In this document: one piece after another, positions 6,093-54,078 of the stretch
How positions within the stretch are numbered: the stretch's first letter is position 1
Layout of the letters: the number at the start of each line of letters is the position of its first letter
Source: an uncultured Flavobacteriales bacterium
Lineage (GTDB): Bacteria > Bacteroidota > Bacteroidia > Flavobacteriales_D > Parvicellaceae
Assembly (NCBI GenBank): GCA_943787535.1
Contig: CALSMU010000008.1
Span: 1 to 64,000 of the forward strand
Reading direction: 5' to 3'
DNA: 64,000 nt
Translations under genes and position numbers: made by a program
The notes under the pieces: generated by a model
Database searches by the model: none
Seen by the model: the letters and a program-made list of their open reading frames with translations, nothing else
What the model was told of the DNA's origin: nothing

Positions 6093-6446
6093 ATGGCTTT
6101 ATCAAGAGAAGATAGAAGAATCAGAATTAAAAGAAGAATCCGTAAAACGGTTACAGGAACATCTTCAAGACCAAGGTTGTCAGTATTTAGAAGTAATAAG
6201 CAAATTTATGCTCAATTAATTGACGATGTAGCTGGTGTAACTTTGGGATCAGCGTCTTCAATAAAGAATGATGCTGCTCAAAAAGGTAACAAAATTGAAC
6301 AAGCTAAATTGATAGGAAAAGAAATCGCAGGAATAGCAAAAAAGGCAGGATTAGAATCTGTAGTTTTTGATAGAAATGGTTACTTATATCATGGTAGAGT
6401 AAAAGCTTTAGCAGAAGCAGCTAGAGAAGAAGGTATTAAATTTTAA
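6093..6446 (+). CDS. rplR: 50S ribosomal protein L18
   Basis: L18 binds 5S rRNA in the central protuberance. The 117-residue product has [20 protein letters not shown] and ends [23 protein letters not shown], both diagnostic. rpsE follows after six bases. Confidence 0.97.
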
Positions 6447-6452
6447 TAGGAA

Positions 6453-6971
6453 ATGGCACAATCAAAGATAAAAAACGTTAAGTCAGCAGACATTGAGTTG
6501 AAAGACAAGTTAGTTGCAATAAACCGTGTAACTAAAGTAACTAAGGGTGGTAGAACCTTCAGTTTTGCTGCAATTGTTGTCGTGGGAGACGAAAATGGTA
6601 CTGTAGGCCATGGTAAAGGTAAAGCAAAAGAGGTAGTAGAGGCAATTTCTAAAGCTATTGATAATGCAAAAAAGAACCTTATCAAAGTTCCGGTTATCAA
6701 TAATACTATTCCTCATACCCAAGTTGGTAAAGCTGATGGAGGTAGAGTGTTTTTAAAGCCAGCTTCTGAAGGTACCGGTGTTATTGCAGGTGGCGCGATG
6801 CGTGCAGTTTTGGAGAGTGCAGGTATACATAATGTACTAGCAAAATCACAAGGTTCTTCCAACCCTCACAATGTTGTGATGGCTACAATAGATGCTTTAT
6901 CTAAGATGCGTGATGCGAATGCAGTAGCTTATCAAAGAGGAGTTTCTTTAGATAAAGTATTTAACGGATAA
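6453..6971 (+). CDS. rpsE: 30S ribosomal protein S5
   Basis: S5 shapes decoding accuracy and the mRNA entry channel. The 172-residue protein has the double-stranded RNA-binding-like N-terminal domain ([15 protein letters not shown]) and the C-terminal block [19 protein letters not shown]. Length is standard. Confidence 0.97.
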
Positions 6972-9770: not shown

Positions 9771-9989
9771 ATGGCTAAACAAGCGTCTATAGAACAAGAT
9801 GGAACAATTATCGAAGCGTTGTCAAATGCAATGTTTCGTGTAGAGTTGGAAAATGGACATATTCTTACGGCTCATATTTCAGGAAAGATGAGAATGCACT
9901 ATATTCGCATTCTTCCTGGAGATAAAGTAAAGGTAGAAATGTCGCCATATGATTTAACAAAAGGAAGAATTTCGTTCAGATATAAGTAA
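9771..9989 (+). CDS. infA: Translation initiation factor IF-1
   Basis: A 72-residue OB-fold protein that occupies the A site of the 30S subunit during initiation. It shows [16 protein letters not shown] and [17 protein letters not shown], nearly invariant in bacteria. It starts one base after the map stop codon, so translation is probably coupled. Confidence 0.98.
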
Positions 9990-10022
9990 TCTGCGCGAAT
10001 CGGAATACATAAAACAAAAGAG

Positions 10023-10139
10023 ATGAAAGTAAGAGCATCAGTAAAGAAAAGATCATCCGACTGCAAAATTGTACGCAGAAAGGGTAGGTTGTACGTTATT
10101 AACAAAAAGAATCCTAAATTCAAACAACGTCAAGGATAG
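10023..10139 (+). CDS. rpmJ: 50S ribosomal protein L36, zinc-free type (not in ORF track)
   Basis: A 38-codon ORF between infA and rpsM, too short for the supplied track. It begins [15 protein letters not shown] and ends NPKFKQRQG, which is L36. Only one of the four zinc ligands of the C+ form remains (Cys14; the others are Ser11, Asn27 and Lys32), so it belongs to the C- form that does not bind zinc. Position infA-rpmJ-rpsM is the conserved one. Confidence 0.96.
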
Positions 10140-10154
10140 AAAACATTAAGTATT

Positions 10155-10532
10155 ATGGCAAGAATTGCAGGAATAGATGTACCAAACAATAAGAGAGGTG
10201 TAATAAGTTTAACTTACATCTACGGTATTGGTAGAAGTACAGCCGCTAAAATATTAGCTAAAGCGGGTGTAGACGAAAATATTAAGGTAGATGACTGGAA
10301 TGATGATCAGATCGGAGCAATCCGTAATGTGATATCTGAAGAGTATAAGGTTGAAGGATCTTTGCGCTCTGAAATACAGCTGAATATCAAGCGTTTAATG
10401 GATATTGGATGCCAAAGAGGGATACGTCATAGAAATGGCTTACCTTTGCGCGGCCAAAGAACAAAAAACAACGCGAGAACTAGAAAAGGAAAAAGAAAAA
10501 CTGTTGCTAATAAGAAAAAAGCAACGAAGTAA
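10155..10532 (+). CDS. rpsM: 30S ribosomal protein S13
   Basis: S13 contacts the P-site tRNA and the large subunit from the 30S head. The 125-residue product starts [15 protein letters not shown] and carries the C-terminal block [18 protein letters not shown]. The basic tail after it is rich in lysine. It heads the alpha-operon part of the cluster. Confidence 0.98.
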
Positions 10533-51510: not shown

Positions 51511-51987
51511 TTACTCCAACCCTAAGTGTTCTTCAACAAACTCTCTTAAGCAAGCATCTCCGCCTTTTCTTTCAAGAATGATATCTGCTGTATTCAATAT
51601 TCTTTTGCTAGAATCACTTGGGCATACTGAAACACCAACATGTTCCATAACGTTATTGTCGTTATTATCGTCTCCCAAAAAGGCTACTTCTTCCAAAGAG
51701 ATTCCCAGTTCAGATATCCATTTTTTAAGAATAGTAAGCTTGTCATCGCTTCCAACATAACAATGCTTAATGTTAAGCATATTCGCTCTTTCAGTAACCA
51801 TTTCAGTAGTCTTACTGTGACTGATTAACCCAACGTGATATCCATTTTGATAAAGCATTTTAACTGCCATACCATCCTTGGTATTGAAACGTTTGAAATG
51901 AGTGCCTTCTGATGTGATGTACATGCCACCATCGGTTAATGTTCCATCAACATCACAAACAACAAATTTTATATTACTTAATGCCAT
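51511..51987 (-). CDS. KdsC-type HAD phosphatase
   Basis: A 158-residue C0-type HAD phosphatase. The nucleophile motif VVCDVDGTLTDGGMYI gives Asp12 and Asp14; ISHSKTTEMV and FLGDDNNDNNVM supply the other HAD motifs. Relatives remove phosphate from Kdo-8-phosphate or acylneuraminate-9-phosphate. Its start codon overlaps the stop of the aldolase gene by one base, so its substrate is plausibly that enzyme's product. Confidence 0.88.
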   Translation of the reverse strand: MALSNIKFVVCDVDGTLTDGGMYITSEGTHFKRFNTKDGMAVKMLYQNGYHVGLISHSKTTEMVTERANMLNIKHCYVGSDDKLTILKKWISELGISLEEVAFLGDDNNDNNVMEHVGVSVCPSDSSKRILNTADIILERKGGDACLREFVEEHLGLE

Positions 51988-52985
51988 TATATGATTGTTT
52001 TTCCAACTGCATTAGCGATTGGGGCAAGAGAATTCTTCATTGCTTTAAACTCTTCAAAGTTCAATTGTTGACTTGCGTCTGATTTTGCCACTTTTGGATT
52101 TGGATGCATTTCAACTAATAGCCCGTCTATGTTCATTGCTGCACAAGCTCTAGCTAAATCAGGAACTCCAAAGGCATGCCCCATAGCATGACTAGGATCT
52201 AATATGAGTGGCAAGTTTGTTTTTTCTTTTAACCATGCAACGCCACAAAGGTCCAATGTAAATCTTGTCTTTGTTTCGAAAGTTCTCAGGCCTCTTTCAC
52301 AAAGAATAACATTTGGATTTCCAGATGATAATATAAATTCAGCACATTGAACAAACTCTTGAATAGTTGTTCCAAAACCCCTTTTTAAAAGAACAGGTTT
52401 GTTTTGTTTTCCACAAGCTTTTAAAATACCATGGTCATACATTGATTTTGCTCCGATTTGGATTACATCACTGTGTTCGATTATTGCATCTACATGCGTA
52501 GAGTCTCGAACCTCAGTAACGATTTTAAGCCCGTGTTTTTCTCTCATTTTCACCAACAGCATTAAACCCTCCATTCCTAAACCTTGAAATGAATAAGGAG
52601 TAGTTCTTGGTTTAAAACAGCCAGCTCTTAGTGTCTTTAATCCCATTGAGATTAAATGTTCAGCACTTGCATTTATTTGTTCTTCGGACTCTACAGAACA
52701 AGGTCCGCCAATCAAAACAGTGTTATTAGTGGTTCCTCCAATTTTAAATGTGTCGAAATCTATTTCTTTAATATCGCTTCTGTAATCTTTACTAGCTAAT
52801 TGAATATCTGAAGCCATCGTAAAGAACTCGTCGGTATAATCATCTAAAAAAGAAGGAAGTTCTTTAATGCTCGAAGAAGTTATTAAACGAGTATAGCTGC
52901 CTGTTTTTAACGCTATAGATTTGCTTTTTGCAGCAAGTTCTTCCACTTTATTTGCGTCAATATTTTCTTTTAAATGTATGATCAT
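51987..52985 (-). CDS. DAHP synthase, type I-beta (3-deoxy-7-phosphoheptulonate synthase)
   Basis: Condenses phosphoenolpyruvate with erythrose 4-phosphate at the head of the shikimate pathway. The 332-residue protein has an N-terminal ferredoxin-like domain (about 1-70), then GGPCSVES (93-100), AGCFKPRTTPYSFQGLG (121-137), VLLKRGFGTTIQEF, NVILCERGLRTFE and DPSHAMGHAFGVPDLA. These are DAHP-synthase motifs; Kdo-8-phosphate synthase has KASFDKAN-like residues in place of KPRT. It sits between an epimerase-CBS protein (4-base overlap) and a KdsC-like phosphatase (1-base overlap), an unusual setting for a shikimate gene. Confidence 0.88.
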   Translation of the reverse strand: MIIHLKENIDANKVEELAAKSKSIALKTGSYTRLITSSSIKELPSFLDDYTDEFFTMASDIQLASKDYRSDIKEIDFDTFKIGGTTNNTVLIGGPCSVESEEQINASAEHLISMGLKTLRAGCFKPRTTPYSFQGLGMEGLMLLVKMREKHGLKIVTEVRDSTHVDAIIEHSDVIQIGAKSMYDHGILKACGKQNKPVLLKRGFGTTIQEFVQCAEFILSSGNPNVILCERGLRTFETKTRFTLDLCGVAWLKEKTNLPLILDPSHAMGHAFGVPDLARACAAMNIDGLLVEMHPNPKVAKSDASQQLNFEEFKAMKNSLAPIANAVGKTII

Positions 52986-53992
52986 AATTCTCCTTTGATT
53001 AGGTTGAGGAAACTAACTATTCCTACTGTTTTGTTATGGTTATTGACTACCGGTAAATAGATTACGGGTTTAGTTTGTTTTTTGATAAATTGAAGCATTT
53101 GATGCACATTAATATTCTCATTAATCACTAAAGGATTAGGGTTTATCAGTTCTTGCATGTTCAAACTATTCAAATCATTTACATGTTTTAATAAGCCGTT
53201 TCGTAAATCTGCGTTTCCGATTATTCCTGCAAATTTGTCATTTTCATCATTAATTATTGCAAAACCTAAAGCTCCTTTTTTGAAAGTAAGTAATAAGCTT
53301 TCTAAGGTTAAATCCTTGCTATTGATAACAGGGGAAGAATCCGTTTTCTGCATGAAATCTTTCACTAAAAAATGTGATTCAATTTCATTTAGTTTTAAGT
53401 TCAACAATGCAGATCCAATAGAGACCGAGTTGAACAAATAAGATCCAGAAACAGAAAGGTAAACCCCCATGTTTCTGAGAATAAAGGAAACTTCTGCGTT
53501 TACACCTCCATCAACATGAATTTTTTTCTCAGGATATTGCTGACTGAATTCACGAATTTTGGTAAAATTCGATTTATCGAACTTTCCTCCACTCTCACCT
53601 GGAATAGTTGCCATCATCAAGATGAAATCGAATGAATCTTTATAGTTCTCAAATACAGAGATATCCGTAAAGGTGGTTATGCCTATTCCTAACTTGCCTC
53701 TGTATTCAGTTGGAATTGTAAGCTTCTTTTCTATTAAATCCTCGTATTGAAACGTTACATAATCAATGTTGTGTTCAATAATTCCAGGGTAATATGCTTC
53801 CGGATTGTCTGTAATGATATGTAAATCAATCGGTAAATTAGAATTCTCACGAATAACTTTAATATCATCAAAAATAGATAGCCTGTTTTTACAGTCTACA
53901 TGGATTACATCCACATGATAGCTATTTAAGTTATCAATGGTAGTAAGAATGTTTTTCTCACTATCAGAAAAAATGGATGCTGAAATTTTCAT
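52982..53992 (-). CDS. Ribulose-phosphate 3-epimerase-like domain fused to a CBS pair
   Basis: A 336-residue protein, started at the ATG giving MKISASIFS; the track start 15 codons upstream adds an unconserved stretch. Residues 1-190 follow the Rpe barrel: SASIFS, IHVDCKN (His31, Asp33), PIDLHI (His58), MMATIPGESGGKF and HVDGGVN (Asp161), so all four metal ligands of Rpe are present. Residues about 208-336 are two CBS motifs with GFAIINDENDKFAGIIGNADLRNGL, like the CBS part of the arabinose-5-phosphate isomerase KdsD. I know no described Rpe-CBS enzyme. It overlaps the DAHP synthase gene by four bases. Confidence 0.82.
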   Translation of the reverse strand: MKISASIFSDSEKNILTTIDNLNSYHVDVIHVDCKNRLSIFDDIKVIRENSNLPIDLHIITDNPEAYYPGIIEHNIDYVTFQYEDLIEKKLTIPTEYRGKLGIGITTFTDISVFENYKDSFDFILMMATIPGESGGKFDKSNFTKIREFSQQYPEKKIHVDGGVNAEVSFILRNMGVYLSVSGSYLFNSVSIGSALLNLKLNEIESHFLVKDFMQKTDSSPVINSKDLTLESLLLTFKKGALGFAIINDENDKFAGIIGNADLRNGLLKHVNDLNSLNMQELINPNPLVINENINVHQMLQFIKKQTKPVIYLPVVNNHNKTVGIVSFLNLIKGEL

Positions 53993-54078
53993 GTTGCAAA
54001 GTAAGTTAGAAAAGAGGATTTTGCCAATGAAACACAAGTTTATTATCCTGATTTTCTATCTTCACAAAAAAATACAGA

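Follow-up and report, generated by a model that had tools for sequence, protein, structure and literature searches.

We analyzed a window of 64,000 nt, the whole stretch covering positions 1–64,000 of contig CALSMU010000008.1; its own coordinates are given in window numbering. At 51511–53992 on the minus strand, the window carries a cassette of three genes that encode, in this order, a fusion of a ribulose-phosphate-epimerase (Rpe) barrel with a KdsD-like pair of CBS domains (Rpe-CBS), an aldolase of the lineage of 3-deoxy-D-arabino-heptulosonate 7-phosphate (DAHP) synthases, and a KdsC-like phosphatase (Table 1). The overlaps of four and one bases reported by the first-pass annotation were confirmed, the second of them at 51987, and the ATGA-type junction between the first two genes recurs in the majority of the 47 loci that we read. 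A TTG at 54037 represents an upstream extension of the ATG start of Rpe-CBS. In the lipopolysaccharide (LPS) of the Gram-negative outer membrane, lipid A is connected to the remaining parts through the sugar 3-deoxy-D-manno-octulosonate (Kdo), whose synthesis is regarded as an invariant pathway and as a target for antibiotics. Genomes that carry the cassette lack both KdsA and the SIS-domain KdsD but retain KdsB and mostly WaaA. It is very likely that the cassette replaces KdsD and KdsA in feeding KdsB.

Proteins encoded by the cassette

Searches with Pfam and NCBIfam models matched Rpe-CBS to Ribul_P_3_epim (E = 8e-22) and to CBS. Against the Rpe equivalog TIGR01163, the protein scored 73.5 bits, which is under the cut-off of 212.6. 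The CBS half scored better with the KpsF/KdsD model than with the CBS domains of IMPDH or ProV; TIGR00393 (KpsF/KdsD) covered this half only (model positions 157–267), and the SIS domain is absent. In a Foldseek comparison of the AlphaFold2 model (mean confidence, pLDDT, 89), the head matched Rpe structures with TM values of 0.77–0.80 over the target, while the best CBS structure was 4o9k, a ligand-bound CBS pair from a KdsD, with the ligand taken to be cytidine monophosphate–Kdo (CMP-Kdo). All 46 Rpe-CBS sequences compared share the metal and catalytic tetrad H31, D33, H58, and D161. Thus, the earlier description of an Rpe barrel with intact metal ligands joined to a KdsD-like CBS half held on both counts.

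Rpe-CBS shares with ordinary Rpe the barrel fold, the H/D/H/D tetrad, and the phosphate-binding glycines, but only Rpe-CBS has a C-terminal CBS pair. It also differs in that two of the three methionines described as a cushion around the 2,3-enediolate of Rpe (PMC5312968) are replaced (N35 and I60) and one is kept (M127), and the FVPNISFG loop is missing. A separate ordinary Rpe is encoded in the window's own genome. Because the tetrad is invariant, the cushion and loop are changed, and an ordinary Rpe is also present, Rpe-CBS is probably an active enzyme with a substrate other than that of ordinary Rpe.

The assignment of the second protein as a DAHP-synthase-type aldolase was borne out as well. 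It matched DAHP_synth_1 (E = 1e-64), scored above the cut-off of NF006421 and over that of the type I-beta model TIGR01361 (312.9 versus 267.75 bits), and stayed under that of the KdsA model TIGR01362 (113 versus 314 bits). Its AlphaFold2 model (pLDDT 92) shows the full type I-beta DAHP-synthase fold including the N-terminal domain; the nearest structures are DAHP synthases, with Kdo 8-phosphate synthases more distant, and the acceptor is not indicated by the fold. With the type I-beta enzymes of T. maritima and P. furiosus, the aldolase has in common the full-length fold, the metal ligands (C96, H266, E292, and D303, invariant in the 46 carrier sequences aligned), and the KPRT motif for erythrose 4-phosphate, which appears as KPR[ST] across the cassettes and as KPRTTP in the window protein. 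In contrast to their GARNxQN motif, the cassette enzymes carry GAK[AS]MYD. The arginine of GAR is a completely conserved phosphoenolpyruvate (PEP) ligand of reference DAHP synthases (PMC6362186), and it is replaced by lysine (Lys180) in all 46 carrier aldolases, while most other PEP ligands are kept. In a quick tree with long branches flagged, the cassette aldolases formed a clade apart from both the housekeeping I-beta enzymes and KdsA, with an SH-aLRT support of 98. KdsA has a homologous aldolase fold and catalyzes the reaction that we propose for the cassette enzyme; however, its acceptor motif KANRS was absent from the aldolase alignment.

The third protein scored over the KdsC/YrbI cut-off of TIGR01670 (136 versus 106.95 bits) and has the DxD motif within VCDVDGTL, but falls under the equivalog cut-offs for both KdsC and KDN-9-P phosphatase. 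Many carriers have a KdsC with an N-terminal extension of ~60 residues (e.g., L036:2844-3542, minus strand, and L037:7160-7834, plus strand), which is absent in the window's genus and looks by eye like a small helical DNA-binding-like domain.

Distribution of the cassette and of the Kdo genes

Searching one genome for each GTDB species gave 272 stretches with Rpe-CBS relatives, mostly in Crocinitomicaceae and other Flavobacteriales and in several Gammaproteobacteria. Among the best 80, which we examined, the aldolase gene directly followed Rpe-CBS in all 80, and wherever the locus extended far enough to read (76 loci), a KdsC-like gene came next. The cassette is present in an isolate, Thiohalophilus thiocyanatoxydans DSM 16326, and on a 2.49-Mb contig of another gammaproteobacterium (G100), which rules out a one-off fusion or, for the Gammaproteobacteria, contamination of metagenome-assembled genomes. 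The first-pass annotation had also considered that the operon might join unrelated steps. We found no point in support of this reading, and it is hardly credible given that the gene order is conserved across two phyla, in places beside kdsB, lpt, msbA-like, or heptosyltransferase-family genes, and that presence of the set is complementary to that of KdsA and KdsD.

This complementarity was seen in each set of genomes compared. Rpe-CBS occurs in 8 of 60 relatives of the window's genome. None of the eight has KdsA or SIS-KdsD, but each keeps KdsB (cut by a contig end in one); WaaA was found in seven. KdsA was present in 47 of the 52 noncarriers (43 over the cut-off and four cut or just below). 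The remaining five have neither the cassette nor KdsA, and three of these are at least 90 percent complete. G045, which has KdsA, and G055, which has the cassette, belong to one family. Of another 40 carriers, none had KdsA or SIS-KdsD over the cut-off, while KdsB was found in all 40. The sole matches at the KdsA search threshold were DAHP-synthase-type proteins; with the KdsA model, the cassette aldolases reached ~110–135 bits, short of the cut-off of 314. In the set of 96 Thiohalophilus relatives, KdsA is present in 78 and a cassette-type aldolase without KdsA in 10, while 8 have neither and none has both; in the three carriers newly seen in this set, Rpe-CBS adjoins the aldolase. Of nine extra I-beta enzymes in the KdsA genomes, the four that could be typed were all ordinary GAR/GTR-MQN forms. 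Thus, KdsA was never found here in a genome with Rpe-CBS.

The genomic position of the cassette in Gammaproteobacteria points to the same pathway. The order in E. coli is yrbG-kdsD-kdsC-lptC-lptA-lptB-rpoN. In loci L100 and L271, yrbG is followed by KdsC2-aldolase-Rpe-CBS and then by a divergent kdsB-kdsC-lptC-lptA-lptB-rpoN. Thus, lying between yrbG and the kdsC-lptC-lptA-lptB-rpoN side, the cassette occupies the position that kdsD has in E. coli. L117 shows the same kdsB-kdsC-lpt-rpoN side, with no yrbG seen within the locus. In Thiohalophilus and G100, the cassette continues into a heptosyltransferase-family gene and then kdsB, and in some Flavobacteriales, a gene for an MsbA-like transporter (best model MsbA, below its cut-off) lies directly upstream.

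These data also bear on the suggestion that the aldolase is the DAHP synthase of the shikimate route and that the cassette controls the flow of erythrose 4-phosphate to aromatic amino acids. The clear type I-beta family scores and fold agree with it. However, a PF00793 search detected three further DAHP-synthase loci in the window's own genome, and another DAHP synthase is encoded in 37 of the 40 carriers; the aldolase as sole DAHP synthase of its genome is thereby ruled out, and it is unlikely to be the shikimate enzyme. In addition, the GAR arginine is replaced throughout the carriers, the gammaproteobacterial neighbors are Kdo and LPS genes rather than aro genes, and the absence of KdsA and KdsD would be left unexplained. 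We therefore consider this control role very improbable. One DAHP-synthase gene of the own genome, in a trp operon on contig C10 (L077:3333-5069, plus strand), is split between reading frames, as is the adjoining phenylalanine-hydroxylase-like open reading frame; the former is intact in L081 and L082, and the latter in L081. The splits are either assembly errors or decay.

Proposed role in Kdo synthesis

The cassette is a variation on the known Kdo pathway rather than a new type of system. It follows the logic of canonical KdsD/KdsA/KdsC, namely, a CBS-bearing maker of an aldose phosphate, a PEP-dependent aldolase, and a HAD phosphatase, and has the same downstream KdsB and WaaA and the same gammaproteobacterial locus. 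In contrast to the SIS head and KdsA of the canonical front end, it has an Rpe barrel and a DAHP-synthase-lineage aldolase. The Kdo link drawn in the first-pass annotation is strongly supported, while its wording that the cassette mimics the Kdo pathway was too weak. We propose that Rpe-CBS would supply an aldose phosphate, most likely arabinose 5-phosphate, by a proton transfer beside the carbonyl, acting either as a ribose-5-phosphate 2-epimerase or as a ribulose-5-phosphate isomerase. Conversion of ribose 5-phosphate to arabinose 5-phosphate is an epimerization beside the carbonyl, which corresponds to Rpe chemistry and may be what Rpe-CBS catalyzes. The aldolase would then join this acceptor to PEP to give a 3-deoxy-ulosonate phosphate, most likely Kdo 8-phosphate. 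The P. furiosus DAHP synthase, among its nearest solved enzymes, is known as promiscuous toward five-carbon acceptors. As the last step of the cassette, the KdsC-like protein would remove the phosphate, and the ordinary KdsB and WaaA of the genome would take the product into LPS. The KdsD-like CBS pair may sense CMP-Kdo and so provide feedback control. We infer the substrates and products of Rpe-CBS and of the aldolase, as well as CMP-Kdo binding by the CBS pair.

KdsB of the carriers keeps all 38 positions at which the KdsA genomes, E. coli among them, are conserved; substitutions at other positions are mild. No consistent specificity shift was found at conserved positions of either KdsB or WaaA. 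The lack of such a shift argues for Kdo or a close analog as the product. Kdo made via arabinose 5-phosphate is the reading we lean toward, with less confidence than in the replacement itself.

Several observations weigh against it. To our knowledge, no Rpe-family enzyme makes arabinose 5-phosphate. KPR[ST] in place of KANRS points to a DAHP-synthase-like acceptor, and, judged by this motif, a four-carbon acceptor would suit the aldolase at least as well. At least three of the gammaproteobacteria read also keep a canonical-type KdsC in the lpt operon, so that, if the product is Kdo, the cassette phosphatase would be redundant there. In L271, for example, one KdsC-type phosphatase belongs to the lpt operon and one to the cassette (6207-6704, minus strand, and 9817-10350, plus strand), with the lpt-operon protein scoring over the KdsC equivalog cut-off. 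One carrier (G043), listed as 100 percent complete, has the cassette and KdsB but no WaaA match. The Fisher p values for mutual exclusion of the cassette and KdsA (5e-7 among the 60 relatives and 4e-9 among the 96 relatives of Thiohalophilus) overstate its strength, as the compared genomes are related and not independent; the same pattern repeated in separate lineages is thus the better argument. Last, eight relatives (G007–G009, G015, G016, G021, G022, and G045) combine an aldolase of the GxK-MYD clade with KdsA but have no Rpe-CBS; in four of them, the aldolase gene lies within a kdsD-kdsA operon, and in one case it is paired with a KdsC gene. Such coexistence does not fit easily with an isofunctional replacement; these enzymes may be evolutionary intermediates or makers of a second sugar.

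This coexistence in eight genomes, in one of which the aldolase has a KdsC neighbor, speaks for a partial replacement, in which, for example, Rpe-CBS would give arabinose 5-phosphate, the aldolase would make a different 3-deoxy sugar, and an unrecognized enzyme would make Kdo 8-phosphate. We regard this as quite unlikely, since the three genes stand together in every readable locus and the 40 carriers offer only DAHP-synthase-type matches in place of KdsA.

Somewhat better placed, though still unlikely, is a seven-carbon analog of Kdo, 3-deoxy-D-lyxo-heptulosonate, attached to lipid A by KdsB and WaaA in place of Kdo. Here, Rpe-CBS would act as an aldose-phosphate 2-epimerase that converts erythrose 4-phosphate to D-threose 4-phosphate at C2, and the aldolase would add PEP to form 3-deoxy-D-lyxo-heptulosonate 7-phosphate, whose configuration at C4–C6 equals that of Kdo, and KdsC, KdsB, and WaaA would treat the product as Kdo. 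We derived this stereochemistry ourselves. Erythrose 4-phosphate is ribulose 5-phosphate without C1, and its carbonyl, epimerized carbon, and phosphate are spaced like those of the substrate of Rpe. The aldolase retains the erythrose-4-phosphate residues of DAHP synthases (KPR[ST] and D303), and Rpe-CBS is altered at two of three substrate-facing methionines and the loop while its metal tetrad and phosphate glycines are kept, both of which agree with this route. Against it stand the unshifted conserved positions of KdsB and WaaA, although conservation of these enzymes cannot decide between Kdo and a seven-carbon analog with the same ring configuration. Moreover, GxK-MYD aldolases also occur without Rpe-CBS, where no source of threose 4-phosphate is evident, and we know of no such enzyme or natural D-threose 4-phosphate pathway. 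Among the three readings offered by the first-pass annotation, a new 3-deoxy-ulosonic acid stands as a possibility, while shikimate control and unrelated steps are disfavored.

If the cassette does stand in for KdsD and KdsA in two phyla, it would account for genomes with KdsB and WaaA but without a known Kdo front end; the ribulose-phosphate-epimerase family would gain a new reaction, and the DAHP-synthase family a new specificity. Score-based annotation would label these genes as ribulose epimerase and DAHP synthase. A search of the open-access (PMC) literature, with closed journals outside its scope, found neither a known Rpe-CBS nor a nonorthologous Kdo front end.

FSA-CBS fusions and further loci

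A second fusion was found in KdsA genomes without SIS-KdsD (e.g., G004, G010, G030, and G039), in which a head resembling fructose-6-phosphate aldolase (FSA) is joined to a KdsD-like CBS pair. Its gene adjoins KdsA in G039 and shares a short contig with KdsA in G017. Like Rpe-CBS, FSA-CBS combines a non-SIS sugar-phosphate enzyme with a KdsD-like CBS pair in genomes without SIS-KdsD; unlike in Rpe-CBS genomes, the head is of the FSA/transaldolase type and a true KdsA is retained. E. coli FsaA acts on arabinose 5-phosphate, with a reported specificity higher than for fructose 6-phosphate (PMC6900487). Given this activity and the location beside KdsA, the CBS pair seems to follow the enzyme that supplies the acceptor, and FSA-CBS is a second candidate substitute for arabinose-5-phosphate isomerase and an independent precedent for the exchange of heads proposed for Rpe-CBS. 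This shows that the KdsD-type CBS pair is found on three unrelated heads: SIS, FSA, and Rpe.

Table 1. Features of the cassette in the window and of related loci in other genomes.
Feature	Position	Strand	Remarks
Rpe-CBS	52982..53992	-	336 aa from ATG; Rpe-family barrel, residues ~1-198; KdsD-like CBS pair, ~207-336
DAHP-synthase I-beta-like aldolase	51987..52985	-	332 aa; GAK[AS]MYD signature, not GARNxQN
KdsC/YrbI-family HAD phosphatase	51511..51987	-	158 aa
ATGA overlap of Rpe-CBS and aldolase genes	52982..52985	-	4 bases
GxK-MYD aldolase	L080:3419-4411	+	in kdsD(SIS only)-kdsA(-kdsB) operon with true KdsA
GxK-MYD aldolase	L235:1255-2244	+	in kdsD(SIS only)-kdsA(-kdsB) operon with true KdsA
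GxK-MYD aldolase	L245:1273-2268	+	in kdsD(SIS only)-kdsA(-kdsB) operon with true KdsA
GxK-MYD aldolase	L247:3-746	-	in kdsD(SIS only)-kdsA(-kdsB) operon with true KdsA
Aldolase and KdsC-like pair	L078:2079-3747	-	without Rpe-CBS; genome G045 also has KdsA and KdsD
FSA (TalC/FSA)-CBS fusion	L065:2715-3728	-	beside KdsA
FSA (TalC/FSA)-CBS fusion	L067:2763-3773	-	genome without SIS-KdsD
FSA (TalC/FSA)-CBS fusion	L068:602-1612	+	genome without SIS-KdsD
FSA (TalC/FSA)-CBS fusion	L069:1570-2577	+	genome without SIS-KdsD

In the window, the cassette is flanked upstream by a divergent 3-hydroxyacyl-CoA dehydrogenase gene and downstream by a gene for a CAP-domain protein, neither of which belongs to the gene set that is conserved among the distant carriers we read. 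In most Crocinitomicaceae loci, a conserved protein of ~405 aa is encoded directly after KdsC (e.g., L036:1615-2832, minus strand); it matched only the AlaDH/PNT N-terminal domain and no NCBIfam model.

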